This document shows positions 13,129-38,254 of a stretch of DNA of 64,000 nt, piece after piece. Within the stretch, counting starts at the first letter, position 1, and each line of letters begins with the position of its first letter. A program made the translations under genes and the position numbers. Under the pieces are notes generated by a model. The model had not been told where the DNA came from. It saw only the letters and a list, made by a program, of their open reading frames with translations, and made no database searches. Origin of the DNA: Rhodanobacter soli (GTDB lineage: Bacteria > Pseudomonadota > Gammaproteobacteria > Xanthomonadales > Rhodanobacteraceae); contig NZ_JBEPSD010000001.1 in NCBI RefSeq assembly GCF_040548735.1, positions 1,798,001 to 1,862,000 on the forward strand, given 5' to 3'.

Positions 13129-14877
13129 CTATTCGAAGCGCCCGGCTGAACCGGCCACCACCGCAGCACAGGCCGGTCTTCCGGCCACCGTGGCGACGAG
13201 GTCGTTGCCGATGGTCAGGCGCTGGTCGGCGATCGCGGCCACGCCGGGCCGGTGCGAGACGGCGATCAGGATGGTCTGCGGCAGGCGGCGCCTGATCGTC
13301 GCGAGAACCGCGGTCTCGGAGGCGGCATCGAGTGCGCTGGTGGTTTCGTCCAGCACGGCCAGGAACGGCCGGCGCAGGATGACCTGGGCCAGCAGCAGCC
13401 GCTGCAGTTCGCCGCCGGAAAGCCGGCTCGACGCGCTGTGCAGTGCGGTATCCAGCCCGTGCGGCGAATCGGCCAGCCGCTTGTCGAGGCCGACATCGAC
13501 CAGCGCGCTGCGCAACATCGCGTCGGTGGCGTCGGGCGCTGCCCACAGCAGGCATTCGCGCACGGAATGCTGCCACGGCCGCACGTTCTGGCTGACGTAG
13601 GCGCCGTGGCGCACCAGCTCGCGGTACGCGTCGAAATCGAGCGGCCGGCCGTCGCGGCGCGCCACGAAAACCTCGGGCGCCATCATGCCGGCCAGCACGT
13701 CGACCAGGCTGCTCTTGCCGATGCCGGAGTCGCCGCAGATCAAGGTGAGCTCGCCGGGCGCCAGCACCAGTTCGCCGACTTCGAGCCCGCTGGGCGGCGG
13801 CGTCAACCGCATCCGCTCGATGTGCAGCGCAGCGCCTGAAGCGCCGGCGCCTGACCGCGCCGCGGACGGGTGCACCGGCGCTAGGCTCACGTAGCGCTGC
13901 CACAGCTCGAAGGCCGGCGCCGCCGAGCGCAGCTGCTGGAAGCTCTGCCGCGTCGTCACCAGGTAGGGCAGCAGGCGCCCGAGCAGCAGGCACACCGCGA
14001 TCAGCGCGGACTGCTCGACCCCGTGCCAGCGATGCGCGAGCACGAACAATGCGGCGATCCCGGCCGCCGCCAGCAGTTCGAGCATCAGCCGTCCGGACGC
14101 CACCAGCTCCAGCTGGCGCCGGTAGCCGTGGCACAACCGGGCGGAAATGGCACCGTAGCTCGCCTTCTCCGCCGCCTCGCGCTCGAACGAGCGGACGTGG
14201 CGCAGGCGCCGCGGGAAATCCTCGCTGTGCCAGAACAGCCGGGTCATGTCGACGACGTACTGGCGAGCGACCATCGATTGCTCGCGGCCGTAGGCGCGCG
14301 ACGCCAGCAGCCCCAGCGCCACCAGTACCGGCGCCGCCAGCATCAGCGGCGGCGAGACCCAGAACGCGAAACCCAGGCTGACGGCGGCACTGACGGCGGC
14401 GATCAGCAACTGCTGCAGGGCGCTGAAGCCCTGCACGATGAGCTCGACATTGTGGGTGAGGACGTTGGCGATTTCCGCGGATGTCGCATCTGCCAGCGAG
14501 GTCAGCGGCGCGTCGACCAGGCGCGCGTGCACCGCACGTCGCAGGTGCATGCCGTAGCGGCCGACCAGGTGCGCGCCCATCCGCGCCGCCTGCCAGCGCA
14601 ACAGCGCGAAGGCGCCGGTCGCGGCGGCGAAGATGGCGGCCTGCATCTCGACGCTGCGGCGCGGGTCGAGCAGCGCGCCGCCGAACGGCAGCGTTTGCCC
14701 CGGCTGCACCAGCGGCACCAGCAGCAGGGCCGCGAGGCTGCCGGCGAAAGCCGCGCCCAGCGACAACACCACGTACGCGACGGTTTCCACCCGCTCGACG
14801 CCGCTGAGCGTGCGCGCCAGCGAACGCAGCAGATCCCCGGGCCGCTCGTGCGCCCGCGGCGACTCAGCCGGCTTCAT
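13129..14877 (-). CDS. ABC exporter, fused membrane and ATPase domains
   Basis: 582 aa. About six membrane segments occupy the first 320 residues. A complete ATPase follows: Walker A CGDSGIGKSS, signature LSGGELQRLLLAQ, Walker B FLAVLDETTSALD and H-loop AVSHRP. There is no N-terminal C39 peptidase, so it would not cut a leader. An ECF-type promoter element points at it from 14979-15007. Neighbours (HprK-like kinase, radical SAM, nucleotidyltransferase) suggest export of a modified peptide or lipid-linked product, but no substrate is visible. It converges with the TetR gene across 41 bases. Confidence 0.85.
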   Translation of the reverse strand: MKPAESPRAHERPGDLLRSLARTLSGVERVETVAYVVLSLGAAFAGSLAALLLVPLVQPGQTLPFGGALLDPRRSVEMQAAIFAAATGAFALLRWQAARMGAHLVGRYGMHLRRAVHARLVDAPLTSLADATSAEIANVLTHNVELIVQGFSALQQLLIAAVSAAVSLGFAFWVSPPLMLAAPVLVALGLLASRAYGREQSMVARQYVVDMTRLFWHSEDFPRRLRHVRSFEREAAEKASYGAISARLCHGYRRQLELVASGRLMLELLAAAGIAALFVLAHRWHGVEQSALIAVCLLLGRLLPYLVTTRQSFQQLRSAAPAFELWQRYVSLAPVHPSAARSGAGASGAALHIERMRLTPPPSGLEVGELVLAPGELTLICGDSGIGKSSLVDVLAGMMAPEVFVARRDGRPLDFDAYRELVRHGAYVSQNVRPWQHSVRECLLWAAPDATDAMLRSALVDVGLDKRLADSPHGLDTALHSASSRLSGGELQRLLLAQVILRRPFLAVLDETTSALDAASETAVLATIRRRLPQTILIAVSHRPGVAAIADQRLTIGNDLVATVAGRPACAAVVAGSAGRFE

Positions 14878-14978
14878 GACGGGTCCGCGTTATCGACCGG
14901 CCAACGCGGCCGCGGTTTCGACGTACTGCGTGGCGGTTCAGGACAACACCTCTCTCCAAGCCGGAATTCCCACGCCGG

Positions 14979-15007
14979 TAGGTGCGGCCCGCAGAGGAAA
15001 AGGTTGC
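14979..15007 (-). promoter_or_regulatory. ECF-type promoter element upstream of the ABC exporter
   Basis: On the minus strand this reads GCAACCTTT-N12-CGCACCTA, matching the window-wide element (GCAACCTTT-N12-GGYACCYA) at all but one position. The -10 part lies 101 bases before the exporter ATG, leaving a leader with no convincing ORF. Confidence 0.65.
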
Positions 15008-15069
15008 GGCAAGACCGGCCGCGGCGGGCCGTCCGTGGTCCGCACGCGCCAGCGTGTTTTCACATCCTG

Positions 15070-15681
15070 CTAGGGGGTCTTGCCTGCCTGCAGGCGCTGC
15101 ACGATGGCCAGCGATTTTTCCACGTGCTGGTCGGGCCTGAGGTGATCGGCCTCCGAGGAAAACGTGGCGACGATCCTGCCGTCGCCGGCGATCACGAAGG
15201 TCGTGCGCGGGATGAAGGCATGGTCGATCGCCACGCCGCGCACATCTTTCATGCCCGGCTTCGCCGCGACGGTCTGGAGGTCATAGGAACCCGCGACCTT
15301 GCCGTCGGCATCGGAGGCGACCGGGAATTTCCCGGCGCAGTATTTCGGATCCGACGAAAACGCGTCGAGCCGTTTGATGCTGTCGGCCGACACGCCGATG
15401 ATGGTGGCGCCGGCCGCATCGAACTTGTCCTTCGTGGTCGCGAAGGTGTGCGCTTCGAGATCGCAGCCGCCGGTGAAAGCCGACGGGTAGAAATACACCA
15501 CGACCGGCCCCTTCTTCAGAGCCTCCCCGAGGGAAAAGGTGAAATGCTTGCCGGCCAGGCTGGCCTCGGCGGTGAAATCGGGTGCCGTGGCGCCCGTTTT
15601 GAGCGCGGCAAGAGCCGGCATCGCCAAAGCCAGCGCCACCAGCGCGCCCGCCGCAACCGCTCCCACAAGACGTTTTTTCAT
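15070..15681 (-). CDS. Secreted peroxiredoxin (AhpC/TSA, BCP-like)
   Basis: 203 aa. A signal peptide (MKKRLVGAVAAGALVALALA, cut near ALA) precedes an AhpC/TSA thioredoxin fold, so it should act in the periplasm. The probable peroxidatic cysteine is in AFTGGCDLEAHTF, where the more usual form is TPGCT. A second cysteine in DPKYCAGKF could resolve it. It would reduce peroxides with a thiol donor. It stands between the exporter and the kinase gene on the same strand and has no ECF box of its own, so its link to the neighbours is uncertain. Confidence 0.85.
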   Translation of the reverse strand: MKKRLVGAVAAGALVALALAMPALAALKTGATAPDFTAEASLAGKHFTFSLGEALKKGPVVVYFYPSAFTGGCDLEAHTFATTKDKFDAAGATIIGVSADSIKRLDAFSSDPKYCAGKFPVASDADGKVAGSYDLQTVAAKPGMKDVRGVAIDHAFIPRTTFVIAGDGRIVATFSSEADHLRPDQHVEKSLAIVQRLQAGKTP

Positions 15682-15860
15682 TTCCGTGACCCTCGTGAAG
15701 GGCATCGACCCGGCTCGGAACACCTCCGCGCTTCGGTCCGTTGCCCGTTGAACATCGAACTGCCCAGGTACGCCCGGCAACCTACTCCCAAGTTCTTCGC
15801 CGCACACATGCCCATCGTTACCTCTCCGGCGCAGGGCGGCGGCAAGCGCGGCCGGCGGCC

Positions 15861-16883
15861 TCAGCCGAGCAGCCGGCGCAAGGCGTCGACGGCGTCCCGC
15901 GGATGGCGCCCGCGGCGCAGCTGGTGGGCGCCGATCTGCTCCATCCGCTGCTGGAAGGGATGCCAGCCCGGCTGCCCTGACGCGTAGGGTTGGTCGGCGC
16001 ACAGCCTTGCAGCGATCTCGCCCCCAGGGACGGCACTCAGCAGCACGTCGGGATCGTCGGCCGCCTGGCTGGAAACGAAGACCATGCCGGCCAGTTCCAG
16101 GGGTGCCGGCGCGAGGCGGCCGTGGCCCTGGCGCAGATCGGCCTCGAATTTCTCGACGCCGCTGCGGCGGCGGATGCGCGGCGCCTCGCCGATCCAGCGG
16201 CGGATCTCCCCGTCGTCGACGAAGCGCAGCGCATCGGCCTGCACGTGCACGTAATTGGCGACACCGGTGGCGAGCAGGCTTTCCGGCTGCACGAAGACCG
16301 CGTCTTCGGCGAGAAAATCCAGGCCCTGCAGCAGACTGTGCAAGGCGAGGGTCGACTTGCCCGAACCGCTGGCCCCCAGCAGCAGGATGCCGCGCCCCTG
16401 CCGGCCCACGCAGGCGCCGTGCAGCGGCACCAGGCCCAGCCCGCGCGTGGCCAGGGTGAACACGGCGAATTCGATGAGCTCGTAGCGCAGGTGGTAGGGG
16501 CGCTCGAGCATGTCCGCGGAAGCCACCACCAGGGCCTGCCGCTGTGCGGGCGCCAGCACCACGTAGTTCGACGCGTCCATCACGCCGCAGAGCAGGCCGG
16601 CGCCGGACTGCATCTGCACCGGCGGCGGCTCGGCGGCAGGCGGCGACGCGCGGCGCGGCAGCAGGCGCAGCTCGATGCGGAACTCCGGCGCGGCCGGCGG
16701 CAGGCGGTGCGGCGGCAGGCCGGCGTAGGCGGCATCGACCAGGTCCAGCAGCGCCGCGCTGGCGCTTTCGAAACGGAAACACCCGCCCATGATCTGCCGG
16801 CACAGCGAAGCGTGCCGGCGCGAGCGTTCGCCAAACGGGTCGGAAGCGGCGGCTTGGGCGCCGTGGTGCGGGTTCAGGGTCAT
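15861..16883 (-). CDS. HprK-related P-loop serine kinase-like protein
   Basis: 340 aa from the ATG at 16883; an in-frame ATG at 16919 is an alternative. The centre has HGACV, then Walker A LLLGASGSGKST, then LDFLAEDAVFV, the arrangement of HPr kinase relatives. Such kinases occur beside NTP_transf_5 nucleotidyltransferases and PqqD-like proteins in the HprK-rel-A cassette, and a relative phosphorylates a lasso peptide C-terminal serine in paeninodin clusters. Here the nucleotidyltransferase is nearby but no PqqD-like or lasso gene is seen. An ECF element lies 66 bases upstream. The substrate is unknown. Confidence 0.75.
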   Translation of the reverse strand: MTLNPHHGAQAAASDPFGERSRRHASLCRQIMGGCFRFESASAALLDLVDAAYAGLPPHRLPPAAPEFRIELRLLPRRASPPAAEPPPVQMQSGAGLLCGVMDASNYVVLAPAQRQALVVASADMLERPYHLRYELIEFAVFTLATRGLGLVPLHGACVGRQGRGILLLGASGSGKSTLALHSLLQGLDFLAEDAVFVQPESLLATGVANYVHVQADALRFVDDGEIRRWIGEAPRIRRRSGVEKFEADLRQGHGRLAPAPLELAGMVFVSSQAADDPDVLLSAVPGGEIAARLCADQPYASGQPGWHPFQQRMEQIGAHQLRRGRHPRDAVDALRRLLG

Positions 16884-16949
16884 CGTCGCCGATCGCGGGT
16901 CCAGCCTCGTTGATGGCATCGCGCCGCGCCATGCGGACACGCTGGCCGG

Positions 16950-16978
16950 TGTGTGCGGCTTCGGCGGACAAAGGTTGT
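16950..16978 (-). promoter_or_regulatory. ECF-type promoter element upstream of the HprK-like gene
   Basis: On the minus strand this reads ACAACCTTT-N12-CGCACACA. It keeps the invariant core CAACC-N16-GYAC and the final A, with a weaker -10 than the other copies. It is divergent from the element at 17021-17049. Confidence 0.5.
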
Positions 16979-17020
16979 CCCTGGCATGTACCCGCGGCCC
17001 GAATATTTTTGCCGCACGAG

Positions 17021-17049
17021 GCAACCGAAGGCCCGCGCCGGGGCACTTA
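17021..17049 (+). promoter_or_regulatory. ECF-type promoter element upstream of the radical SAM operon
   Basis: This reads GCAACCGAA-N12-GGCACTTA, with the -35 core and exact spacing kept and one change in the -10 part. It is 91 bases before the radical SAM ATG and 42 bases from the divergent kinase element. Confidence 0.6.
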
Positions 17050-17140
17050 CGTCCAGGCAGCGTCGAGCGACGGCGCCCACGTGCCGGCCGTGCGCCGGTG
17101 CGCGGCCTGCCCCCATGGCTACGATCGAGGCTACTGCGAG

Positions 17141-18619
17141 ATGCTGAGGATTCACGTCGGCCACTCCTACTTCCTGCGGTTCGACCCGAAACAGTGGGAG
17201 CGCGGCAAGCCGTATCCCCCGCTCGCCACGATCCAGGTCGCGGCGCTGCTGCGGCAGATGGGGCACGCGGTCAGCCTGTTCGACGCGATGCTTGCCGGCG
17301 GCGTCGAGGACTTCGAGGCCTCCCTGCAAACCACCCGGCCGGACGTGGTGGTGCTGTACGAGGACAACTTCAACTTCCTGACCAAGATGTGCCTGGGCCG
17401 CATGCGCGAGGCGGCCTGCCAGATGATCGCCGCGGCTCGTGCCGGCGGCGCCCGGGTGATCGTCGCCGGCTCCGATGCCTCCGACCATCCGGACGCCTTT
17501 CTCGCCGCCGGCGCGCACGCCGTGCTGGTCGGCGAAGGCATCGCCGCCCTGGCCGAACTGATCGCGCGGCTGCAGCGCAACCCGAAGGCCGACGACGACG
17601 GCTGGACCGCCGGCCTCGGCGGCGTCGCCACCCTGGTCGACGGGCAGATGCAGCTGACCCGGCTCGGCGCGCTGCCGCCGGACCCGCGGCTGGTCGGCCA
17701 CCCCGCCTGGGACCTGGTCGACATCGAACGCTACCGCGCGATGTGGCACGAACGGCACGGCTACTTCAGCCTCAACATGGCGGCGTCGCGCGGCTGTCCG
17801 TTCCGCTGCAACTGGTGCGCCAAGCCGATCTGGGGCAACCACTACAACCAGCGCAGCGCGGAGGACGTGGCCGCGGAGATGAGCTACCTGAAACGCACGT
17901 TCAAGCCGGACCACATCTGGCTGGCGGACGACATCTTCGGCTTTCGCGTCGACTGGGTGGCGGAGTTCGCCGCGCACCTTCACGCCGCCGACGGGCCGGT
18001 GCCGTTCACCATCCAGACCCGCGCCGACCTGATCAGCGAACGCATGGCCGCCGCGCTCGGCGAGGCCGGTTGCGCGGAGGCGTGGATCGGCGCGGAAAGC
18101 GGCAGCCAGCGCGTGCTGGATGCGATGAACAAAGGCACCAAGGTCGCCGACCTCGTCACCGCCCGCGCACGCCTGGGCGAACACGGCATCCGCGTGGGCT
18201 TCTTCATCCAGCTGGGTTATCTGGGCGAGCAACTGGACGACCTGCTGGCCACCCGCGAGCTGATCGCGCAGGCCGCGCCGGACGATATCGGGGTGAGCGT
18301 GTCCTACCCGCTGCCGGGCACGAAGTTCTACGAGCAGGTCAAGGCCCAGCTGGGCCCGAAGACGCACTGGCAGGACAGCGGCGACCTGGCCATGATGTTC
18401 CGCGGCGCCTACGACTCGGACTTCTACCGCCGCGTGCGCGACCTGCTGCACGAGCAGGTCGCCATCCAGCAGGCCGAGCCCGCCGAACGGGCGGAGCGCC
18501 ACACCGCGCTCGACGCGCAATGGGACGCGCTGATCGCCCGCGAGGGCATGCACCGCAACAAGGACGCCACGTCGCCGCCAGCCGCGTCGACGCGGCACAT
18601 CGCCCTGCAGCTGCACTGA
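17141..18619 (+). CDS. Radical SAM protein with N-terminal B12-binding-type domain
   Basis: 492 aa. The start MLRIHVGHSYFLRF is chosen because the longer frame upstream is low-complexity and would cover the promoter. Residues 1 to about 190 form a cobalamin-binding-type Rossmann region (VIVAGSDASDHPDAFL, VLVGEG). The radical SAM domain has CPFRCNWC, the CxxxCxxC 4Fe-4S ligand set, then AESGSQRVLDAMNKG. Relatives methylate or rearrange unactivated carbons; the substrate cannot be read from the sequence. It is the first gene of a four-gene plus-strand operon with a nucleotidyltransferase, a methyltransferase and a flavin-reductase-like protein. Confidence 0.85.
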   Translation: MLRIHVGHSYFLRFDPKQWERGKPYPPLATIQVAALLRQMGHAVSLFDAMLAGGVEDFEASLQTTRPDVVVLYEDNFNFLTKMCLGRMREAACQMIAAARAGGARVIVAGSDASDHPDAFLAAGAHAVLVGEGIAALAELIARLQRNPKADDDGWTAGLGGVATLVDGQMQLTRLGALPPDPRLVGHPAWDLVDIERYRAMWHERHGYFSLNMAASRGCPFRCNWCAKPIWGNHYNQRSAEDVAAEMSYLKRTFKPDHIWLADDIFGFRVDWVAEFAAHLHAADGPVPFTIQTRADLISERMAAALGEAGCAEAWIGAESGSQRVLDAMNKGTKVADLVTARARLGEHGIRVGFFIQLGYLGEQLDDLLATRELIAQAAPDDIGVSVSYPLPGTKFYEQVKAQLGPKTHWQDSGDLAMMFRGAYDSDFYRRVRDLLHEQVAIQQAEPAERAERHTALDAQWDALIAREGMHRNKDATSPPAASTRHIALQLH

Positions 18620-18626
18620 CCGCGCC

Positions 18627-19871
18627 ATGCTGCCGCCACTCAGGATCGTCCGGCACGGCTTGCGCCGCACCACCGAGGCACTCGCCGCGGAGCTGGCGCG
18701 ACCGGGCGGCGCCACGCCGGCGTGGAACGAACTGGAATGGCGGCTGGCCACGGCCGTCGCCGTCGCGCACGGCGTGTCGCCGCTACTGTGCGGATGCTGC
18801 GCGTGGGAAAACCTGCCGTGGCGGCGCTTCCTGGAAAGCCAGCGCGAGCACGTCGAGTTGCGCCATCGGCGCATCGACGCACTGCTGCAGCGCATCGACG
18901 CCGACGCCCGCGCCGCCGGGCTGGCGCTGGTGCCGCTGAAGGGTGCCGCGCTGCACGCGCTGGGGATCTACGCGCCGGGCGAGCGGCCGATGGCCGACAT
19001 CGACCTGCTGGTGCGCGAGGACGATGCCGCGGCGGCGATCGAACTGCTGCTGCAGCTCGGCTACGTGGAATCGTTCGCACAGTGGAAGCACCGCGTGTTC
19101 AAGCCGGCCACCGGCCAGCCATTCGCCGGGCTGGGCGAGCACCGCGACACGCCGGTCAACATCGAGCTGCATACCCGCATCCGCGAGCGGCTGCCGGTGG
19201 CGCCGGTGGACATCAGCGCGCGGGTCCATCCGCGGCAGCCGCAACCGGGCCTGAACCCCTACCCGTCGCACGGCGCGCTGATGAGCCACCTGCTGCTGCA
19301 CGCCGCCGGCAACATGTGCGGCCGCAGCCTGCGCCTGCTGCACCTGCACGACATCGCACTGCTGGCGGCGCGCCTCTCCGCGGGCGACTGGAACGTGCTG
19401 TGGGACGGCGACGCCGAGCCGCCATGGTGGGCGCTGCCGCCGCTGCGGCTGGCCGCACGCCACTACCCGGAGGCGATTCCCGCCGCCGTGCTGGCCCGGC
19501 TCGAACGCGACTGCCCGCTGCTGCTGCGGACGATCTCGCGCCGGCAAAGCCTGACCCGGGTTTCGTGTTCGGAACTGTGGCTGCACGCCTTCGCCGGCAT
19601 CGAGTGGTCGCGCTCCGTCCATGAAGCCGGGCGCTACCTCCGGAATCGTGTCAGCCCGCCGCAAGAAGCCCTCGAGGAGCGTGCCGACATGGCGCGCACC
19701 CAGCTCTGGCTGCAGGGGCAAGACTGGGTCACCTCGCCGCATCGCCGGCGCGTCCTGACCTGGCTCACCCGGCCGGTGCCGCGGATGGACATCTTGTACG
19801 TGGTGCGTGCGGCACTGGAGCCCCTCGCTCCAAAGAAGAGCAAGAAGCTCACCCTGGTCATTTCGAGATAG
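18627..19871 (+). CDS. NTP_transf_5 family nucleotidyltransferase-like protein
   Basis: 414 aa, 7 bases after the radical SAM gene. The core motif is LVPLKGAALHALG followed by ERPMADIDLLV, the acidic metal-binding pair of the nucleotidyltransferase fold, then a helical C-terminal half. Members often stand beside HprK-related kinases in peptide-modification or envelope clusters, as here. No reaction has been assigned to the family with certainty. It ends 13 bases before the next gene. Confidence 0.8.
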   Translation: MLPPLRIVRHGLRRTTEALAAELARPGGATPAWNELEWRLATAVAVAHGVSPLLCGCCAWENLPWRRFLESQREHVELRHRRIDALLQRIDADARAAGLALVPLKGAALHALGIYAPGERPMADIDLLVREDDAAAAIELLLQLGYVESFAQWKHRVFKPATGQPFAGLGEHRDTPVNIELHTRIRERLPVAPVDISARVHPRQPQPGLNPYPSHGALMSHLLLHAAGNMCGRSLRLLHLHDIALLAARLSAGDWNVLWDGDAEPPWWALPPLRLAARHYPEAIPAAVLARLERDCPLLLRTISRRQSLTRVSCSELWLHAFAGIEWSRSVHEAGRYLRNRVSPPQEALEERADMARTQLWLQGQDWVTSPHRRRVLTWLTRPVPRMDILYVVRAALEPLAPKKSKKLTLVISR

Positions 19872-19884
19872 GGTCGGAAGCGAC

Positions 19885-20514
19885 GTGCATACCGGAGAGC
19901 AATACCACGAATTCATGCTGGCCTCGCCGCGGGACCGGGCGGTGCGCGAGAGGTTTCAGAAGATGGCGCTGGACCTGCTGCCCGCGGGAGCGGACGTGCT
20001 CGACTTCGGTGCCGGCACCGGTATCGATGCAAAGGCTTATGCCGCCAACGGGCACCCGACCTTCGTGCATGAACCGTCGCAGGCGATGGGCGACTACCTG
20101 GCGCAGTACTGCCGCGACGAGATCGCCCGCAAGACCATCGTCACGGTGGCGTCGCCGCTCGCGTGCAAGGTGCAAGCCGTCACGGCGAACTTTGCGGTGC
20201 TCAACCATTTCGCGGATCACGCCGCGCTTTTCGAAGAGTTGTCGCGCGTGGTCCGTGAGGGCGGTTTTGTCCTGGCCAGCATGCTCAATCCTTATTACCT
20301 CGGTGACGCACGTTACGGCTGGTGGCGGGCGAACGTCATGAATCTCGTGCGCAGCGGCCACTACGCCATCGAAAGCGAAAGCCGCATCCATCGTTTTGCG
20401 CCACGCGTCATGGCGCGATCAGCAGCACCGTATTTCCGGCTGGAGCGCCTCGTTCCGCGCGGTTTCGGATGGGCCGCCCAGCTCTACATGTTCCTGTTGT
20501 TTCGGCGGATCTGA
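19885..20514 (+). CDS. Class I SAM-dependent methyltransferase
   Basis: 209 aa from a GTG at 19885 preceded by GGAAG at good distance; the first in-frame ATG (19915) would cut into the conserved N-terminus. SAM-binding motif I is VLDFGAGTGIDAKAY, followed by the acidic motif II region and FAVLNHFADH, the motif IV area. The C-terminus is hydrophobic and basic. The substrate is unknown; its place after the radical SAM and nucleotidyltransferase genes suggests a joint product. The next gene starts 1 base after its stop. Confidence 0.8.
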   Translation: MHTGEQYHEFMLASPRDRAVRERFQKMALDLLPAGADVLDFGAGTGIDAKAYAANGHPTFVHEPSQAMGDYLAQYCRDEIARKTIVTVASPLACKVQAVTANFAVLNHFADHAALFEELSRVVREGGFVLASMLNPYYLGDARYGWWRANVMNLVRSGHYAIESESRIHRFAPRVMARSAAPYFRLERLVPRGFGWAAQLYMFLLFRRI

Positions 20515-20515
20515 C

Positions 20516-21439
20516 ATGTGGAAGGATTGGATAAGGCCGTTCGTGCGTCCCCTGCCGCAATGGTCGACGCTGGCCGTCGCTTCTCCGCAGCAGGCGGTCA
20601 TCGCCACCTTGCGCTGGGACGGCCAATCGGCAGACGTCACGGCGGACCACACCGTGGCGTCGCTCAAGCCGCTCGCGATCGCGACCAGCCTTGATGCCGG
20701 ACAGTGTCCCGTACTCGAGTACCGCGACAGCGCGACAGGGAGGCTGCTCGGCGTTTTGCGACTGGCGCGGACCGCGTCGATCGCGACCGAGAACACCTCG
20801 CTCACGCTCTACCACGTCGCCGCGGGCGAACACCGCTGCCTCGGCTGGCCGCGGCGCCCGTGGAACGCGTGGCTGCAGAACCGCCTCATGCGGAAAAGCC
20901 GCTCGTCCAACCACTTGAACATGGAACCCGCGGTGGCACAGCAGCTGATGATCGCCTACCTGTGCCCGCGGCCGGTCGTCCTTGTCTCCGTCGACGCATC
21001 GGGTCACCACAACATCTTCCCGATGGACCTGATCGGCCCGCTGCAACGCAGCGGGCTTTTCTCGCTCGCGCTGCGCAGCACCAACGTCTCCGTGCCGACC
21101 ATGCGCGAAGCGCGCCGAGTGGCCCTGTCCAGCATCCCCGCGACGATGAAGGCGGTTGTCTACAAGCTTGCCGCGCATCACAAGCAGCCGCTCGCTGACT
21201 GGAGCGAGCTTCCGTTTCCGGTTCGGCCGTCGCGGGAGTTCGGCATACCCGCCGTCGCCGCGGCGCTGCACATCCGGGAGCTGGCTATCGTGCACAGCCA
21301 GGAGGTCGGCTCGCATACGCTGTTCCTTGGCCGCCTCGTTTCCGACGACAAGCTGGCGGAAGGTACCCAGTTGCATCACACGGCCGGCTTCCACCAAGCC
21401 TGGCGCTGCCGGCAAGGCATGCCGTTTGCGGAAATCTAG
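20516..21439 (+). CDS. Flavin-reductase-like (FMN-binding split-barrel) protein
   Basis: 307 aa, starting one base after the methyltransferase stop. The first 140 residues match nothing I recognise. From about residue 145 the segment PRPVVLVSVDASGHHNIFPMD, then FSLALRSTN, has the layout of the flavin-reductase-like split barrel that binds FMN. A strong hairpin terminator follows at 21563-21595, closing the operon. It might supply reduced flavin or act as an oxidoreductase on the operon's product; both are inference. Confidence 0.6.
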   Translation: MWKDWIRPFVRPLPQWSTLAVASPQQAVIATLRWDGQSADVTADHTVASLKPLAIATSLDAGQCPVLEYRDSATGRLLGVLRLARTASIATENTSLTLYHVAAGEHRCLGWPRRPWNAWLQNRLMRKSRSSNHLNMEPAVAQQLMIAYLCPRPVVLVSVDASGHHNIFPMDLIGPLQRSGLFSLALRSTNVSVPTMREARRVALSSIPATMKAVVYKLAAHHKQPLADWSELPFPVRPSREFGIPAVAAALHIRELAIVHSQEVGSHTLFLGRLVSDDKLAEGTQLHHTAGFHQAWRCRQGMPFAEI

Positions 21440-23166: not shown

Positions 23167-24273
23167 TCATCCGCGCGCGGCAAGCAGGCGCAGATACAGC
23201 GCCTCAAACGCGCGCGCGGTGTGGTCCGCGTCTTCGCGCACGGCGCGGCACTGTGCGGCGGCGGCCAGCTGCAGGCGCAGCGCTTCGTCCGCCAGCACCC
23301 GGCTGATCGCGCCGGCCAGGGCGGCCCAGTCGCCGACCGGCACGGCCAGCGCCGCCGATGGCGTCCATTCCGCCAGGTGCCCGACCGCGGTGCCGACCGC
23401 GGGCACGCCCGCCACCGCCGCCTCGAGCAGCACCAGCGGGCCGGCCTCGTGCAGCGACGACAGCACCAGCAGGTCGGCCGACTCCATCATCGGGCGCAAC
23501 TCGCGCTGCGTCTTGAAGCCGTGGAAGCGGACGCGGTCTTCCAGTCCCAACCGGCAGGCCAGTTGCTCCATCTCGCCGTGCAGCGTGTCCACGCCGACGA
23601 TGTCCATGCGGAAGGCCAGCCCTGCCTTGGCCAGCGCCGCCAGCGCGCGCAGCAGGGTCGGCTGGTCCTTCACCCGGTTGAGGCTGGCGACGTGGATCAG
23701 CCGCGCCGGCCCCGCGCCGCGCCCGTGCGGTGCCAGCGGCGACCACCCGCGCAGGTCGACGCCGAGCGGCACGCGCCGGGCCTTGAGACCGAGCGCGGCC
23801 AGCGCGTCGATGATCGGCGCGCTCGCCGCGGTGACGACATCGGCACCGCGCAGCACCACCGCCTCGCGCAGTCGCCCTTTCCATTTGCGCCGGCCACCGT
23901 AGCCGATCGCGTGCAGCGCGACCAGCTCGCCGCCGGCGACATGCACCAGGCTCGGCCGCCGCAGCCATTTCGCCGCGGCGACGGCGACCAGGCTGCAGGA
24001 ACCGGAGAAGATCGCCTGCACCAGGTCGAACGGCGCGCGGCGATGCTCGGCGCGGATCGCCGCGATCGCGCGCACGCGCGTCCAGCCGTCGCCGATGTTG
24101 TGCACGGTGGCGCCGGCGAGTTCCCAGCGACCCGCCGCCGCTTCCTGGTGCAGCGCGAAGACATGCACGTCGTGCGCGCGCGCCAGCCGCCCGATCAGCG
24201 CCAGCAGAGCCGGGATCACGCGGAACTCGCCGCTGCGATCCACGCCGCCCGGCACCACCAGCGCGAGTTTCAT
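23167..24273 (-). CDS. Glycosyltransferase, GT4 type
   Basis: 368 aa from MKLALVVPGGVDRSGEFRV, whose ATG overlaps the upstream gene's stop (ATGA). GT-B fold: an N-terminal acceptor domain, VPLGVDLRGW at the hinge, then the GT4 donor-binding stretch LVLSSLHEAGPLVLLEAAVAG with its E-x7-E motif. It transfers a sugar from a nucleotide donor, probably in the cytoplasm. It is the last gene of the six-gene operon starting at 29760. Donor and acceptor cannot be told. Confidence 0.85.
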   Translation of the reverse strand: MKLALVVPGGVDRSGEFRVIPALLALIGRLARAHDVHVFALHQEAAAGRWELAGATVHNIGDGWTRVRAIAAIRAEHRRAPFDLVQAIFSGSCSLVAVAAAKWLRRPSLVHVAGGELVALHAIGYGGRRKWKGRLREAVVLRGADVVTAASAPIIDALAALGLKARRVPLGVDLRGWSPLAPHGRGAGPARLIHVASLNRVKDQPTLLRALAALAKAGLAFRMDIVGVDTLHGEMEQLACRLGLEDRVRFHGFKTQRELRPMMESADLLVLSSLHEAGPLVLLEAAVAGVPAVGTAVGHLAEWTPSAALAVPVGDWAALAGAISRVLADEALRLQLAAAAQCRAVREDADHTARAFEALYLRLLAARG

Positions 24274-25394
24274 CCCCCCCTCCACTGCCGGTCGTCGAGC
24301 ACCTGCGCATAGGCATCGGCCCAGCGGCGGCCCAGCGCGGCAAACGACAGCGTGGCGTCGAAGTGGGCGCGCACTTGCGCCGGCGAGGGCCGGTTCGCCG
24401 CAACATCGACCAGCGCCTCGGCCAGCTGCGCGGCGTCGCCGCAGGGCCACAGGCGACCGACGCGGCCGTCGCCGGTCAGCGCGCGGAACGCGGGTATGTC
24501 GGTGGCCACCGGCGCCACGCCGCAAGCCAATGCCTCCAGCAGCGCATAGCCGCAGCCCTCGGCATGGCTGCCGGCGACGAACAGGTCCGCGGCCCGCATC
24601 AGTGTCTCGATCCGCGCGTGCGCCACCTTGCCGAGCAGGTGCACGCGCCCGGCCAGCCGCGGATCGTGCTCGATGCGCTGGCGCACCGCATCGAGCAGCG
24701 GCGCGTTGCCGAACACGCACCACAGCTGCAGGCCGGGCAAGCGCTGCACGGCGCGGGCCACGCCGTCGAGCACCGTCAGCGGGTCCTTGCCGGCGTTCAG
24801 ATGGCCGACCCACAGCACGCAGGGGTCGCCGCGCAGGCCGGTCTCGCCACGCGCGCGGTCACACTCGCCCGGCGTGAAACGGCTGCTGGATTCGGGTATC
24901 GCGAACAGCCGCGTGCGCGGCGCGAACAGGCCGGCACGGGTGAACGGCTGCGCCATGTCGGCGGCGGTGAAGGCGATGCCCGCGGCAGCCCCGTACCAGC
25001 GCCGCCACCATGGCCGCCGCCACCGGCGCGGCGGCCGGTCGGCGTGGTCCTGGATCACGATCGGCAACTGCGGCAGGTGCCGCGCCAAGGCGAACGCGTC
25101 CGCGGCGAAGCCCAGGCTGTGCAGGTGGAGCACGTCGGGGCGGATCTCGCCCAGCACCTCGACGAGACGGCGCGTCCGCGCTGCGCCGGGCACCGCGACG
25201 AAGCGGTAGTCGATGCCGTTGCGCAGCACGCGCTCCGGGCGCGTCGCCAGCTGGATCACCGACACGCGGGTGCCGGCGCTGGCCACCGCTTCGGCCACGT
25301 CGGCCAGCGTGGGCCATTGCTCGAACACGTCGGCCGAGGCGAGGCCTGCCGGCACCGGCAGGAAATTGATCTGCGCCACGTGCACGGCCGGCAT
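24270..25394 (-). CDS. Glycosyltransferase, GT4 type
   Basis: 374 aa. It has a GT-B fold with HLHSLGFAADAFALA in the N-terminal domain and FVAGSHAEGCGYALLEALACG as the donor-site E-x7-E motif. A stretch of Arg and Trp near residue 120 (RRWRRPWWRRWYG) could touch the membrane. It follows the radical SAM gene by 4 bases and overlaps the next glycosyltransferase, so both probably extend one glycan. Confidence 0.85.
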   Translation of the reverse strand: MPAVHVAQINFLPVPAGLASADVFEQWPTLADVAEAVASAGTRVSVIQLATRPERVLRNGIDYRFVAVPGAARTRRLVEVLGEIRPDVLHLHSLGFAADAFALARHLPQLPIVIQDHADRPPRRWRRPWWRRWYGAAAGIAFTAADMAQPFTRAGLFAPRTRLFAIPESSSRFTPGECDRARGETGLRGDPCVLWVGHLNAGKDPLTVLDGVARAVQRLPGLQLWCVFGNAPLLDAVRQRIEHDPRLAGRVHLLGKVAHARIETLMRAADLFVAGSHAEGCGYALLEALACGVAPVATDIPAFRALTGDGRVGRLWPCGDAAQLAEALVDVAANRPSPAQVRAHFDATLSFAALGRRWADAYAQVLDDRQWRGG

Positions 25395-25398
25395 CGGC

Positions 25399-26913
25399 CT
25401 AGAGGCCCGATACCTGCGGCATGCGCAGGCGCACCAGCCGGTTCGCCAGGTTCAGTTCCCACGGCCGGTCGTACTTGCGGAAACGGTAGCGCCAGCCGGC
25501 CATCGCGCTCAGGTTGCGCTTGGCCCATGGCGGCGCGCGCAGGTCCTGCACCGTGGGGTAGCGGCAGCGCAGCACGGTGACGAAGTCGTTGATACGGTGG
25601 CGCAGCTTGTCGGTGAGCCAGGGCGCATCGACGTGGCAGGCGTAATTGACCCAGTGCGGTTGGGTCCACTCGTCCGGCGTGGTGGGGAACACCACCGGCT
25701 CGCCGTCGAGGTCGAGCAGCGGCGCGCCCGGCCGCTTGCTGCGGTCCTTCTCGTGGCGGCTGTGCTCCGGCAGCGGCGTGTAGACGTAGATGACGATTTC
25801 CGTCTGCGGGTTGATCCGCTTCAGCTCGCGGATGAATTCGAAGGTGCGCTCGGTCTCTTCCTCGGTGTTCTCCGGCGGCGCGACCATGAACGACAGCTCG
25901 GGGATCACCCCGTAGCGGCGGCACTGTTCGACCACCGCCAGGGTCTGGTCCGGGCGCGTGCCCTTGCGGATGTCATGCAGCATCTGGTCGCTGGGCGATT
26001 CCGCGCCGATGTAGGCCATGCGCAGCCGGCTCTTGCGCACCAGTTCCCACGAACACTCCGACAGCTTCAGCAACGCGTCCGCGCGGGCGAAGCACCACCA
26101 CGGCAGTTCGAACCGGGCCATCACTTCGAGCAGCGGCACCATGTCCGCCTCGCGGTCGAAGAAGTTGTGGTCGAAGTACTGCACCGAGTCCGCGCCCAGC
26201 TCATGCTTGAGATAGCCCAGCTCGCGCTCCAGCCGCGCGGCGGCGGGCAGGAAGGTCGCGCCGCCGAACATCGCGGCCACGCCGCAGAAGGTGCAGTGGT
26301 AGCGGCAGCCGATTGCCGCCTGGTGCGCGACGGTGCGCTGGCCGAGGTAGGTGCGCGCCAGGTAGCGGCGCGGATCGCCGAGCTTGTCGTAGGGCAGCAA
26401 CCCCGCGGGGTCGTTGCGCACGATGCGGCGAGCCGGGTTGTGCACCACCGTGCCGGCGTTTTTCCAGGACAACCCGGCGATCTGCTCCAGGGCGGGACCG
26501 GCGTGGCCGCTGAGCGTGGCGACCAGCTCCGACAAGGTGTCCTCGCCCTGCGCGCGGACCGCGTAGTCGACGTAGGGCGCGGCCAGCGTGGCGTCCGTGT
26601 GCAGGGTGGGGAAGTAGCCGCCCCAGATGATCGGCAGCGCCGGGAAGCGCGCGCGGATCGCCTGCGACACGGCGATCGCCGGGGCCACCTGCGGGCCGCC
26701 CATCACGCCGATGCCGACGGCGTCGAAGCGGTCCTGCTCCAGCGCATGCAGGGTGTCGTTGACGAAGTCGCGGTCCACATTGCCGTCGATGATGCGGCTG
26801 CTGCCGCTGCGGTCCAGCGCCGCCGCCAGGTGCAGCAGCGCCAGCGGGAACCGCGCGCTGGTACGCGAGGTGATGGTGGGGTTGATCAACAAGGTGTGCG
26901 GTGGATGGGTCAT
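25399..26913 (-). CDS. B12-binding-domain radical SAM protein (BchE/PhpK-like)
   Basis: 504 aa from the ATG at 26913. The N-terminal cobalamin-binding-type domain shows GIGVMGGPQVAPAIAVSQ and IIWGGYFPTLH. The radical SAM core has CRYHCTFC (CxxxCxxC) and YIGAESPSDQMLHDIRKG. It is not a close copy of the radical SAM protein at 17141, but both sit next to SAM methyltransferases under ECF-type promoters. It probably performs a radical methylation or rearrangement on a sugar, lipid or peptide made by this locus. Confidence 0.85.
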   Translation of the reverse strand: MTHPPHTLLINPTITSRTSARFPLALLHLAAALDRSGSSRIIDGNVDRDFVNDTLHALEQDRFDAVGIGVMGGPQVAPAIAVSQAIRARFPALPIIWGGYFPTLHTDATLAAPYVDYAVRAQGEDTLSELVATLSGHAGPALEQIAGLSWKNAGTVVHNPARRIVRNDPAGLLPYDKLGDPRRYLARTYLGQRTVAHQAAIGCRYHCTFCGVAAMFGGATFLPAAARLERELGYLKHELGADSVQYFDHNFFDREADMVPLLEVMARFELPWWCFARADALLKLSECSWELVRKSRLRMAYIGAESPSDQMLHDIRKGTRPDQTLAVVEQCRRYGVIPELSFMVAPPENTEEETERTFEFIRELKRINPQTEIVIYVYTPLPEHSRHEKDRSKRPGAPLLDLDGEPVVFPTTPDEWTQPHWVNYACHVDAPWLTDKLRHRINDFVTVLRCRYPTVQDLRAPPWAKRNLSAMAGWRYRFRKYDRPWELNLANRLVRLRMPQVSGL

Positions 26914-26937: not shown

Positions 26938-27636
26938 TCAAGGCGCCCGGCGCAGCTGGAACACCAGCGCGACGGGAACCTCCAGTGCCATGCGGTCGAA
27001 GTGCGCGCCGGCGGGGACGTCGGCCGGATCGAGCATGGGTTCCAGCACCTGCTCGATGCGCAGCCCGAGTCCTTCGCAGGCGGCGTGCCAATGGCTATAC
27101 AGGTGCGGGGTATGCCGCACGGCGTAGCTCAGGCCGCCGGACTTGAAATCGCGCCGCCAGCCGAGCGCATGCCCGATCGGATGCACGTCGCTGCACAGCA
27201 GCGTGCCGCCGGGCCGGGTCACCCGGCGCAGCTCGGTCAGCGACTGCCGCAGGTCGTCGAGATGTCCGACGACCAGGCCGCAGACGGTCAGGTCCGCCTG
27301 CGCATCCGGCAGCGGCAGCGCGGCCAGACTGCCCTGCACCAGCGCGACCGGCGCGTCGGCGTGCAGCGCGGCCAGTTCGGTGCCGGCACGCGCCAGCATG
27401 TGCGGCGAAAGATCCACGCCGGTCACGCGCGCCGCGCCGCGGCGCAGCGCATGCAGCATGTAGCGCCCGCTGCCGCAGCCGACGTCGAGCACCGCCTGTC
27501 CGCGCAATGCGCCGGGCATCAGCCCGAGCATCGCGCGTTCCTCGGCCCGCATCACCGGATTGTGCGCATGCGCCGGATAGCTGGTCGCCCACAGTGCGTA
27601 GGCCTCACGCGGTTCGAGCAGCGGCTGGCGGGACAT
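26938..27636 (-). CDS. Class I SAM-dependent methyltransferase
   Basis: 232 aa from MSRQPLLEPREAYALWA, one base of overlap with the amidohydrolase stop (TGATG). Motif I is VLDVGCGSGRYML, followed by TGVDLSPHMLARA and LTVCGLVVGHL, typical of the Methyltransf_11 family. It is the third gene of the operon. The substrate is unknown; relatives act on quinones, lipids and small molecules. Confidence 0.85.
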   Translation of the reverse strand: MSRQPLLEPREAYALWATSYPAHAHNPVMRAEERAMLGLMPGALRGQAVLDVGCGSGRYMLHALRRGAARVTGVDLSPHMLARAGTELAALHADAPVALVQGSLAALPLPDAQADLTVCGLVVGHLDDLRQSLTELRRVTRPGGTLLCSDVHPIGHALGWRRDFKSGGLSYAVRHTPHLYSHWHAACEGLGLRIEQVLEPMLDPADVPAGAHFDRMALEVPVALVFQLRRAP

Positions 27637-28868
27637 CAGTAGCACCTGGCTTCGATGGTGGCGTCGCGCGCGCGTGTGTTGCGCCCGGCAACCCGTTCGA
27701 GTCCGGGTTCGAGCGCGAGCAGCGCGGGCTCGGCCAGCGGCCCGGCCAGCAGCTTCGGCTTGCCGTCCAGCGTCACCGGCACGGCGTCCACGCCGGTGGC
27801 CGCGAACCACTCGGCGAAATCGGGATCGGCGATGCGCGGCACGCCGTCGCGCACCACGGCGCGGATGTCGCTGCGCCGGATGCCGGTCAGGTTGCTTTCC
27901 GCGTCGCCGCCGCGGTCCTCGACGATCACCAGGTCCGCCCGCGCGCCCGGCGCGAGGCTGCCGCGCGAGGGCAGGCGCAGGATGCGCGCGGCATCGGTGG
28001 TGGCCAGCCCCAGCAGCTGCCGCGGGCTGAGCTCGCCGCGCGCGGCGACCCCGCGCATTTCATCGAGCAGGTCGCGCGCACCGCTGAGCCGCGAGTCGCT
28101 GCCCAGCGCCAGCCGCCCGGCCGTGCACAGCCGCCGCGGATCCAGCGAGCGCCCGAGCAGGGCGTGGTTGCTGGTCGGACACCAGACCACCGCCGCGCCG
28201 CTGGCGATCACCCGGTCGACGTCGCGCTCGCGCAGGCCCACGCCGTGGACCAGCACACTGTTCGCCGCCAGGCATCCCAGTTGGTCCAGCTGATCGAGTT
28301 CGGCCTGCGCCGTCGCGTCGGTACCCTCGGCCAGGTGGATCAGCCAAGGGCGATCGGCGGGCGTGGCGGCAAAGCTCGACGACACCGGCGGCCCATAACC
28401 GGGCCAGCCCAGTGCGTAGCTCCAGCCGTAATCGCGCAGCAGCGCGACCGGGAAATCCGTCGCGTCGAGCGCCGCATGCCAGGGATCGTGATGCGCCACG
28501 CAGGTGGTGCCGGCGAGCAGGTTCTTCAGCGCGCCATGGCGCAGCCGCAGTGCCTTCGGCACCTGCAGTGCGGCGGCGACGGCGGGTTCCGCGAAATGCG
28601 CCTGGAACGCCGCGATCCAGGCGTAGCTGTTGGGGAACGGCGCACCGCTGCGCAGCGGCGGCACGGCGTTGACGTGCAGGTGCTCGTGCGCGTTGATCAG
28701 GCCGGGAAAGATCAGATGGTCGCGCAGGTCGATCCGCCAGGCCCGCGCGGCCAGCGAGGCGCCGATCCGCCCGGCGCGGATCGGCAGCGGCGCGCGCGAG
28801 GCACCGGCGGACGTGACCGACATCGCGCGGCACAGGCTGATATCCAACGCGGCCTGGAGAACGTCCAT
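27636..28868 (-). CDS. Amidohydrolase-superfamily metal-dependent hydrolase
   Basis: 410 aa. The N-terminal metal site is INAHEHLHVNA, the HxH pair at the end of strand 1. Later ligands are LIHLAEGTD, VLVHGVGL and LGSDSRLSG, in the order of the cytosine-deaminase/chlorohydrolase branch (TIM barrel, one metal). It would hydrolyse or deaminate a C-N bond in a ring or side chain. Membership in this operon, 4 bases from a methyltransferase, suggests tailoring of a small product; no substrate is evident. Confidence 0.82.
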   Translation of the reverse strand: MDVLQAALDISLCRAMSVTSAGASRAPLPIRAGRIGASLAARAWRIDLRDHLIFPGLINAHEHLHVNAVPPLRSGAPFPNSYAWIAAFQAHFAEPAVAAALQVPKALRLRHGALKNLLAGTTCVAHHDPWHAALDATDFPVALLRDYGWSYALGWPGYGPPVSSSFAATPADRPWLIHLAEGTDATAQAELDQLDQLGCLAANSVLVHGVGLRERDVDRVIASGAAVVWCPTSNHALLGRSLDPRRLCTAGRLALGSDSRLSGARDLLDEMRGVAARGELSPRQLLGLATTDAARILRLPSRGSLAPGARADLVIVEDRGGDAESNLTGIRRSDIRAVVRDGVPRIADPDFAEWFAATGVDAVPVTLDGKPKLLAGPLAEPALLALEPGLERVAGRNTRARDATIEARCY

Positions 28869-28872: not shown

Positions 28873-29760
28873 TCAGCGCCGCCGCATCACGATCAGGAAG
28901 TGATCGCCCATGCCGCGCAGCAGCGGCAGGGCGCCGAAGCGGTCGTCGAGCCCGCCCAGGCGCTCGCACCAGCGGCGGTGGCGGCGGTAGTAGTCCACCA
29001 GGTAGGGCGGCGGCATGAACAGGCTCAGCGCGCGGTAGCCCGCCAGCGAAAAGTGTTCGGCGAAGGCGCGGTAGAACTCACGCGGCAGGTAGTAACGGGT
29101 CCAGATCGTGTGGTGGTTCATGCCCACCGCGGTCGCGCCGCGCGCGGCGCGCACGCCGGCCCGCCTGAAGCGGCCGCGCAGCGCATAGTGGCCCAGCTCC
29201 CACGGACAGATCCGGCCCATCACCGAAAAAACCAGGCGGCCGCCGGGACGGAGCAGGCGCGCGCATTCGGCCGCGACGGCGCCGAGATCCGGCGCGCAGT
29301 TCAGCGGGCCGAAGTTCGAATAGATGCCGTCGAATGCATCGTCGAGCCGGTCGAGCTGCTGGATGCCGAGATGGATGGCCGTGACGCGGGATTGCAGGTC
29401 CTCGGCGACGGCGCGCGCCCGGGTGCGTTCGACCATCTGCGGCGACCAGTCGCTGGCGACGACCTGGTGGCCGCGCCGCGCGAATTCGAGCGCGTCGATG
29501 CCGGTGCCGCAGCCCAGATCGAGCAGGCGCGAGGCGGTCGGGAACTCGCCCTGCACGGTGTCCCACATGGCCAGCCGCATGCGCTGGATCAGCTCGTTGT
29601 TGCCGCGCGGGCCGTCATAGTCGGCGGCGACGCTGTCGAAGGCGCGCTGCGTGTCGAGCAGCTGCGCCTCGTCCAGCGACATGCCGCCGCGCTGCGGCCG
29701 GCGCATGTCCGGGACGAGTCCCCCCAGATCCCCGGTTTCAAGTTCGTGCTGCCCATTCAT
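28873..29760 (-). CDS. Class I SAM-dependent methyltransferase, first gene of the operon
   Basis: 295 aa from MNGQHELETGDLGG. Motif I is LLDLGCGTGIDALEFARRG, and the acidic end of strand 2 is VVASDWSPQMV. The C-terminal part has FMPPPYLVDYYRRHRRW. It heads the operon of methyltransferase, amidohydrolase, methyltransferase, radical SAM and two glycosyltransferases, and an ECF element lies 86 bases upstream. The substrate is unknown. Confidence 0.85.
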   Translation of the reverse strand: MNGQHELETGDLGGLVPDMRRPQRGGMSLDEAQLLDTQRAFDSVAADYDGPRGNNELIQRMRLAMWDTVQGEFPTASRLLDLGCGTGIDALEFARRGHQVVASDWSPQMVERTRARAVAEDLQSRVTAIHLGIQQLDRLDDAFDGIYSNFGPLNCAPDLGAVAAECARLLRPGGRLVFSVMGRICPWELGHYALRGRFRRAGVRAARGATAVGMNHHTIWTRYYLPREFYRAFAEHFSLAGYRALSLFMPPPYLVDYYRRHRRWCERLGGLDDRFGALPLLRGMGDHFLIVMRRR

Positions 29761-29846
29761 GTCGATCTCTGTTCCAGCGGCATGCCGCCCGCGATTCGCC
29801 ACGACGCACCGGGCCAACCGCAGCCGGCATCTTCAGTTCCTGACCG

Positions 29847-38213: not shown

Positions 38214-38254
38214 GTTCCGGACCCGGCGATGGTTTCGGGGACGACCGACTCATC

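Follow-up and report, generated by a model that had tools for sequence, protein, structure and literature searches.

The subject of this analysis is an arm of genes at 13129-21439 in a 64-kb window (the whole stretch of DNA analyzed, G000:C1:1798001-1862000) of the 3.9-Mb genome of Rhodanobacter soli, encoding an ATP-binding cassette (ABC) half-exporter, an HprK-like kinase, a B12-binding radical S-adenosylmethionine (SAM) enzyme, an NTP_transf_5 enzyme, a methyltransferase and a flavin-reductase-like protein. We interpret this left arm, with a probability of about 0.6, as one end of a regulon (~13129-42145) that is controlled by an extracytoplasmic function (ECF) sigma factor and makes a Wzx/Wzy-type surface glycan in a subset of Lysobacterales (Xanthomonadales). 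An earlier sequence-only reading had described the six genes as a stand-alone, unassigned modification system; all six are present (by Pfam, and for the kinase by fold and residues), and they form instead one end of a locus of ~29 kb that has a sigma factor of its own, so that the observation is confirmed and extended while the free-standing interpretation is only partly supported. The locus is marked by its gene content, a near-constant neighborhood, matching occurrence across genomes, a shared promoter element and intact catalytic motifs.

Briefly, genes were called and reading frames picked by codon composition plus homology. Locus counts were obtained with tblastn in the loci of the best 80 of 111 relatives, drawn from Rhodanobacter, Dyella, Luteibacter, Frateuria, Pinirhizobacter, Luteimonas, Pseudoxanthomonas, Lysobacter, Xanthomonas and unplaced metagenome-assembled genomes, one of which is labeled Eremiobacteraeota; their flanks of 10 kb make the counts too low for genes distant from the locus center. 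A further 27 NTP_transf_5 loci were kept apart from these, 18 relatives served for the right-hand glycan genes and the sigma module, and presence or absence across genomes was scored in 147 genomes of the family. The nearest matches of the NTP_transf_5 protein are in Rhodanobacter genomes at 88-89% identity (records very close to the window's own were possibly excluded), and the subfamily is nearly absent outside the family: among 398 genomes of the phylum 8 gave a match, 2 of them family members matching at full length and 6 weak and partial (2e-9 to 7e-9).

Four of the genes constitute a conserved core in Rhodanobacter, Dyella, Luteibacter, Frateuria, Lysobacter and Xanthomonas. NTP_transf_5 and radical SAM genes are found in all 80 loci (the latter at 67-95% identity), the kinase in 79 and the exporter in 78; the misses are one stretch that starts near the radical SAM gene and thus carries neither kinase nor exporter (L120) and one locus without an exporter (L141), and a single exporter (L109) is just 32% identical. 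The complete core recurs in 27/27 of the further loci, and its orientation is constant, with radical SAM and NTP_transf_5 genes reading one way and kinase and exporter genes the other (78/78 complete loci in the first sample, 27/27 in the second). The expectation that homologues of the six genes would be neighbors elsewhere holds for these four; the methyltransferase and flavin genes are found in 23 and 22 of the 80 loci.

Glycan genes adjoin this core in 73 of the 80 loci, most often the two GT4 glycosyltransferases (GT4a 73/80, GT4b 71/80), the methyltransferase MT27 (67/80), the amidohydrolase (66/80) and the methyltransferase MT28 (65/80), followed by the second radical SAM enzyme (56/80), Wzz (51/80), the Wzy-like protein (47/80), the GT2 glycosyltransferase (42/80) and Wzx (22/80); the FdtA-like gene is found in 18/18 relatives examined at that end. 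Both a Wzx-type flippase and a Wzz chain-length determinant, as a Wzx/Wzy locus calls for, are encoded. Furthermore, the radical SAM, NTP_transf_5 and amidohydrolase genes occur in the identical 55 of 147 family genomes. The amidohydrolase and NTP_transf_5 genes are no more than 22 kb apart in 52 of them; the other three, fragmented assemblies (G070, G087, G104), have the two genes on separate contigs. That unrelated genes simply came to lie side by side has next to no probability given this coincidence and the shared promoter element, and is already refuted for the core; chance would suit the peroxiredoxin, an optional passenger present in 19/80 loci, and a zinc-type quinone-reductase-like dehydrogenase gene (21689-22606, flanked by the flavin gene on one side and glycan genes on the other), which recurs in 0/40 and 0/80 loci and has no promoter element before it in the window.

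The element in question, CAACC-N16-GCACnyAC, starts at 15006 (-), 16977 (-) and 17022 (+) in the left arm, in agreement with the earlier description of three transcription units with ECF-type elements; the ECF sigma factor and four further elements (29874 -, 38282 -, 38331 + and 39553 +) fall to the right of the six genes. The element lies upstream of its genes, its 3' end being 66-101 bases away for the exporter, kinase, radical SAM enzyme and MT28; the distance is 41 bases for both the sigma gene and the first gene of the glycan operon, and 349 bases for the outer-membrane-type gene. When up to one mismatch is allowed, the element stands before the radical SAM gene in 80/80 loci, the kinase gene in 64/79, MT28 in 53/65 and the exporter gene in 29/78, and is missing before the operon-internal genes for NTP_transf_5 (0/80), GT4a (0/73), GT4b (0/71) and the amidohydrolase (0/66); random fragments of the same loci contain it in 221/8000 cases, true sites counted in. 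In the 15 Xanthomonas loci it stands before kinase, radical SAM and MT28 genes in 15/15 each and before the exporter gene in 0/15. Among the 18 right-hand relatives 13 have it upstream of MT28, 16 upstream of the first glycan gene (one mismatch each time, none exact) and 16 upstream of the sigma gene (at most one mismatch, 11 exact), with none at 11 other locus genes (0 of 15 to 18 each). The sigma gene itself is kept in 18/18 of these relatives (75-98% identity), the anti-sigma gene in 17/18 and the subtilase gene in 15/18, the misses lying in stretches that end nearby.

Exact sites in seven whole genomes number 34, and 26 of these belong to the locus (5/6, the window's genome, then 4/4, 4/4, 3/4, 4/5, 3/6 and 3/5), while a reversed control pattern gave 8 sites. 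Judged by exact sites, the regulon is very small and consists of a single glycan locus, on which it centers, and a gene pair that can be separate from it. The window contains 3 copies of a looser pattern (GCAACC, a spacer of 13-19, GCACNNAC), where shuffled sequence leads one to expect 0.21; this pattern is not locus-specific on its own, since genome-wide it yields 8 sites (3 of them in the window) against 5 for its reversed control.

The methyltransferase-flavin pair is a separable accessory and not part of the core, and it provides evidence on the regulon that is independent of position. The flavin gene occurs in 37/147 family genomes, namely 37 of the 55 NTP_transf_5 carriers and 0 of the other 92 (P 1.8e-21 under the assumption of independent genomes, which they are not). 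Of these 37 carriers, 25 were examined for the position of the pair, which shares a stretch with NTP_transf_5 in 12/25 and lies elsewhere in 13/25; six genes of equal standing are thus not supported. Nine pairs follow NTP_transf_5 co-directionally, 8 without an element of their own and 1 with a one-mismatch element. Every one of the 13 pairs lying elsewhere is preceded by the element at a distance of no more than 400 bases (8 exact sites, 5 one-mismatch sites), whereas 4315 random fragments of the same 13 loci gave 0 exact and 5 one-mismatch sites, which places the pair in the same regulon. Because the element is shared by the left arm, the glycan operons, the sigma gene and a pair lying elsewhere, membership of left arm, glycan operons and sigma module in one regulon is well supported. 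The ECF sigma factor of the locus would be the protein that reads the element, on the circumstantial grounds that the element is shared and also stands 5' of the sigma gene.

Every left-arm gene except the kinase passes its curated Pfam cut-off. The kinase aligns with HprK at an LHGA histidine, a P-loop (GASGSGKS) and an acidic pair (AED) that is E-D, not D-D. Its predicted structure (mean predicted local distance difference test score, pLDDT, 89.3) matched phosphoenolpyruvate carboxykinase (PEPCK) best in Foldseek (E 1.3e-7; template modeling (TM) score 0.49 by query) and HprK more weakly (E 6.9e-5, TM 0.19), so that in the model the enzyme has the fold, P-loop, upstream histidine and acidic pair expected of the HprK/PEPCK fold. 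Nucleotidyltransferases are recognized by a DxD motif plus a third carboxylate; the NTP_transf_5 enzyme keeps KG...DxD and a third acidic residue, with D124, D126 and E180 invariant among 13 homologues and the acidic residues aligning in 11 distant members. A fold search on its model found nothing at E 0.001 or better, and the assignment thus rests mainly on Pfam and motifs; weaker matches were led by nucleotidyltransferase-type folds (among them CapRel, Cid1, LnuA and ANT(2'')), with FKRP lower. The radical SAM enzyme carries its cluster motif as CPFRCNWC (CxxxCxxC) together with a B12-binding domain, comes close to several B12 radical SAM families of NCBIfam, all under cut-off, and has among its best solved relatives the apramycin enzyme 6fd2 (1.6e-17), which we take to be AprD4, working on an aminoglycoside sugar. 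In several genomes the NTP_transf_5 gene has a companion: an extra methyltransferase with a cysteine-rich N-terminus lies 3' of it at L064:10619-11548 (the copy that was scanned) and L066:10392-11522, overlapping frames appear in L067, L068, L069 and L071, and the gene is absent from the window. Recurrent frames 3' of NTP_transf_5 had been considered as a peptide precursor and were discarded when they proved to overlap this methyltransferase.

A substrate outside the glycan is quite unlikely in its most obvious form, tailoring of a ribosomally synthesized and post-translationally modified peptide (RiPP) whose precursor lies elsewhere, the kinase and NTP_transf_5 enzyme modifying the peptide and the ABC protein exporting it. 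Clusters of this kind often include radical SAM and ABC proteins, and a lasso-type Transglut_core3 gene is present in the genome. Lasso peptides are, moreover, modified by HprK-like kinases and a nucleotidyltransferase-like enzyme, as two reviews describe (PMC8498205, PMC9266682). The lasso transglutaminase does not track the module, being found in 9/55 carriers and 11/92 non-carriers (P 0.47), and lasso tailoring was for this reason dropped as the leading explanation. No PqqD was found genome-wide with PF05402 at E 0.1 (TIGR04353 itself was not searched genome-wide), and neither lasso precursor nor B protease nor C cyclase among the scanned genes 13129-42145 (asparagine-synthase-type C enzymes were not searched genome-wide), which bears out the earlier remark that PqqD, the lasso enzymes and an obvious precursor are missing. 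In seven locus gaps a 22-residue frame alone passed the ribosome-site filter. All-against-all comparison of frames of at least 30 residues in 28 loci gave 15 groups present in at least 4 loci, and no conserved small frame stood out, with the reservation that two large alternate-frame mixtures (1110 and 951 members) could hide a small gene. The single exact element outside the locus in the window's genome falls inside an 817-residue open frame (one-mismatch sites were not searched genome-wide). The proposal that small frames or PqqD genes might be found behind the same element thus came up empty for PqqD in the whole genome and for a conserved small frame in the gaps, the 28 loci and the exact sites. 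Since most loci tie the core to glycan genes, the substrate is likelier to be a glycan or a lipid-linked sugar than a peptide, and the earlier suggestion of a lipid-linked sugar from the adjacent locus is now the best reading. The Transglut_core3 gene itself, near the end of contig 1 (G000:C1:2375337; L185, G000:C1:2367000-2383664), possibly belongs to a separate lasso peptide cluster.

We also regard as unlikely a regulatory role, in which the kinase would tune glycan synthesis by phosphorylating a locus protein such as the anti-sigma factor, Wzz or one of the glycosyltransferases, and the NTP_transf_5 enzyme would nucleotidylate the same target or reverse the modification. HprK is a protein-serine kinase/phosphorylase of related fold, and the locus promoter element is common to kinase and NTP_transf_5 units, as regulation would have it; the radical SAM gene in the NTP_transf_5 operon, however, fits chemistry better. 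In addition, the one characterized pair of such kind that was found, PsmK/PsmN, modifies a product and not a regulator in the available parts of its description (PMC8498205, PMC9266682).

Returning to the surface glycan, the chemistry of the tailoring module would probably be of a phosphate type, and the kinase/NTP_transf_5 pair, poorly understood and described from peptide antibiotics, probably acts on sugars as well. Glycosyltransferases would build a lipid-linked oligosaccharide from a dTDP-amino-sugar and other precursors, the HprK-like kinase would use ATP to place a phosphate on a hydroxyl of the glycan or of an attached group, and the NTP_transf_5 enzyme would add a glycosyl or nucleotidyl group to that phosphate, as PsmN seems to do with phosphorylated pseudomycoidin, yielding a phosphodiester-linked decoration. 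The B12 radical SAM enzyme may alter a sugar carbon by C-methylation or deoxygenation, the ABC exporter may flip the modified intermediate, the methyltransferase and flavin protein, an option present in roughly two thirds of carriers, may contribute one more modification, and the sigma/anti-sigma/subtilase module would switch all units jointly. More generally, we tentatively suggest that HprK-like kinase and NTP_transf_5 enzyme could be a general phosphate-decorating pair, acting here on a polysaccharide or lipid-linked precursor through sugar-hydroxyl phosphorylation and a sugar or nucleotide cap, with the radical SAM enzyme editing the same unit under a glycan-dedicated sigma factor.

Several findings weigh against this account. 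The core sits in promoter units of its own and may therefore act on a non-glycan target, and no glycan gene lies within the stretch in 7/80 and 2/27 loci; of the former seven, L105, L128 and L134 stop soon after NTP_transf_5 and L122, L147, L150 and L164 do not. Among the scanned locus genes 23167-42145, neither an initiating sugar-phosphate transferase (the genome was not searched for one) nor a Wza-type exporter was found, and we infer the Wzy at 30726-31904 from hydrophobic sequence and position. As regards the element, 49/78 loci have an exporter without one of its own, it precedes the pair methyltransferase in only 4/23 loci (where the pair lies mostly 3' of NTP_transf_5) and the peroxiredoxin in 2/19, and only one of the three pairs on the exporter side has an element, an exact one. 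The kinase scores 39.1 bits against HprK_rel_A (TIGR04352), far short of the equivalog cut-off of 200. Finally, the precedent is not firm in its own chemistry: for PsmN, nucleotidylation with a host glycosyltransferase acting next was not excluded (PMC9266682).

Table 1 Features of the left arm, glycan operons and sigma module (window coordinates; profile scores in bits)
Feature	Coordinates	Strand	Basis
ABC half-exporter (membrane domain + ATPase)	13129..14877	-	PF00005 65.4, PF00664 35.7
Element for exporter	14978..15006	-	CAACC-N16-GCACnyAC
Peroxiredoxin, between kinase and exporter	15073..15681	-	PF00578
HprK-like kinase	15861..16883	-	PF07475 (Hpr_kinase_C) 28.6, under cut-off 33.3
Element for kinase	16949..16977	-	CAACC-N16-GCACnyAC
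Element for radical SAM-NTP_transf_5 operon	17022..17050	+	CAACC-N16-GCACnyAC
B12-binding radical SAM	17141..18619	+	PF04055 62.8, PF02310 34.2, both over cut-off
NTP_transf_5 nucleotidyltransferase-fold enzyme	18627..19871	+	PF14907 109.9, cut-off 31.2
SAM-dependent methyltransferase of accessory pair	19885..20514	+	GTG start; PF13489 47.6
Flavin-reductase-like split-barrel protein of accessory pair	20516..21439	+	PF01613 38.0
GT4 glycosyltransferase a (GT4a)	23167..24273	-	PF00534 88.0
GT4 glycosyltransferase b (GT4b)	24270..25394	-	PF13692 76.8
Second B12-binding radical SAM	25399..26913	-	PF02310, PF04055; CxxxCxxC
Methyltransferase MT27	26938..27636	-	PF08241 87.6
Amidohydrolase	27636..28868	-	PF01979 65.9
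Methyltransferase MT28, head of second glycan operon	28873..29760	-	PF13649 71.3
Element for second glycan operon (MT28)	29846..29874	-	CAACC-N16-GCACnyAC
Wzz chain-length determinant	29897..30739	-	PF02706 41.0
Multi-spanning membrane protein, Wzy-polymerase-like	30726..31904	-	Hydrophobic sequence and position; no Pfam match
GT2 glycosyltransferase	31901..32845	-	PF00535 85.8
Wzx-type flippase	32848..34098	-	PF13440 50.7, PF01943 46.5
DegT sugar aminotransferase	34095..35237	-	PF01041 374.6
Acetyltransf_6 family protein	35252..36184	-	PF13480 36
Glycosidase-like protein	36171..37118	-	Weak: PF00251 18.4, under cut-off
Hexapeptide acyltransferase	37126..37791	-	PF00132 63.3
FdtA/WxcM-like sugar-nucleotide isomerase, first gene of glycan operon	37776..38213	-	PF05523 155.8
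Element for glycan operon (FdtA-like first)	38254..38282	-	One mismatch
Element of rightward operon	38331..38359	+	CAACC-N16-GCACnyAC
Predicted outer-membrane-type protein	38708..39544	+	Start uncertain; no Pfam match
Element of sigma gene	39553..39581	+	GTAC variant
ECF sigma factor	39622..40206	+	PF08281 42.8, PF04542 38.0
Anti-sigma factor, zf-HC2 zinc finger	40203..40838	+	PF13490 22.6, barely over cut-off 22.2
Subtilase (S8 protease)	40835..42145	+	PF00082 119.4; lipoprotein-like N-terminus judged by eye

Within the glycan operons, the Wzy-like membrane protein is well conserved (51-96% identity in relatives) yet has no Pfam match. The second radical SAM gene, placed between GT4b and MT27, is present in most loci outside Xanthomonas and in 1/15 Xanthomonas loci (missing from L158, L160, L163, L165, L167, L168, L169, L171, L174, L175, L177, L178, L180 and L181). 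In the rightward operon, the protein that a relative encodes at the position of the outer-membrane-type gene gives a weak Gcw_chp match, under cut-off. Relatives carry, before that gene, a large CxxCH protein flanked by cytochrome b561 and cytochrome c (assigned by Pfam in L250:10435-12809, with similar frames at L236:11978-13348, L238:11980-13811 and L242:11416-13254); these genes are missing from the window at 38331-38708. A defense system was also considered for the locus and rejected, PADLOC matches being weak save for generic and IetS-type subtilase models that match the S8 protease.

The only reported activity found for an NTP_transf_5-like enzyme is on a lasso peptide, in the parts of two lasso reviews that were available (PMC8498205, PMC9266682); in the present locus, synteny, a matching distribution across genomes and a common promoter element connect a divergent HprK-like/NTP_transf_5 pair with the making of a glycan. 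The promoter element offers a sequence test for regulon membership, which has already caught a gene pair elsewhere in the genome. Carriers are soil and plant-associated bacteria, Xanthomonas included, and Rhodanobacter Root179 is described as genetically tractable in the available part of one report, which makes no reference to this locus (PMC10719396).

Among known systems, Wzx/Wzy O-antigen and exopolysaccharide loci resemble the present one in their flippase, Wzz, GT2 and GT4 glycosyltransferases, DegT, FdtA and hexapeptide acyltransferase; the present locus differs in adding the kinase/NTP_transf_5 pair, two B12 radical SAM enzymes, an amidohydrolase and a dedicated ECF sigma module, and in having no initiating transferase among the scanned genes. 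Its sigma module shares with ECF sigma/zf-HC2 anti-sigma regulons the sigma regions 2 and 4, the anti-sigma zinc finger and a promoter-like element 5' of the sigma gene, but serves a very small regulon by exact sites and has a subtilase as third gene. Among the titles and abstract openings that searches of the open-access literature returned, none pointed to this locus.

The HprK_rel_A/PqqD_rel_X/NTP_transf_5 cassette (TIGR04352, TIGR04353, PF14907) likewise places an HprK-like kinase near an NTP_transf_5 enzyme; the present locus adds the B12 radical SAM enzyme, the ABC exporter, the glycan locus and the sigma module, its kinase falls far under the cut-off and its genome gives no PqqD match. 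NTP_transf_5 is found in 75/369 sampled gammaproteobacterial genomes, the window's included, and in 20 other PF14907 neighborhoods from those 75 (mostly 19 kb) a kinase-profile match occurs in 18/20. Among 130 neighbor proteins (mostly from 219 listed frames), Pfam recognized 21 NTP_transf_5 and 5 PqqD, and NCBIfam 16 HprK_rel_A and 7 PqqD_rel_X, not all over cut-off. On the strength of this survey, the present module is a divergent relative of the cassette, without PqqD and joined to a glycan locus.

Pseudomycoidin and paeninodin lasso clusters (PsmK/PsmN, PadeK) also combine a kinase, a nucleotidyltransferase-like enzyme and an ABC protein, PsmN being presumably a member of PF14907; no precursor, B or C enzyme was seen in the present locus, which also has no lasso B association. 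In the available parts of the reviews, HprK-like lasso kinases phosphorylate a C-terminal serine and require a His-Lys-Asp-Asp set, and PsmN, annotated as a nucleotidyltransferase, attaches one hexose or two to pseudomycoidin at the residue that carries the phosphate (PMC8498205, PMC9266682). Phosphorylation and then hexose attachment by PsmK/PsmN, as these accounts describe it, is the best precedent for the decoration proposed here.

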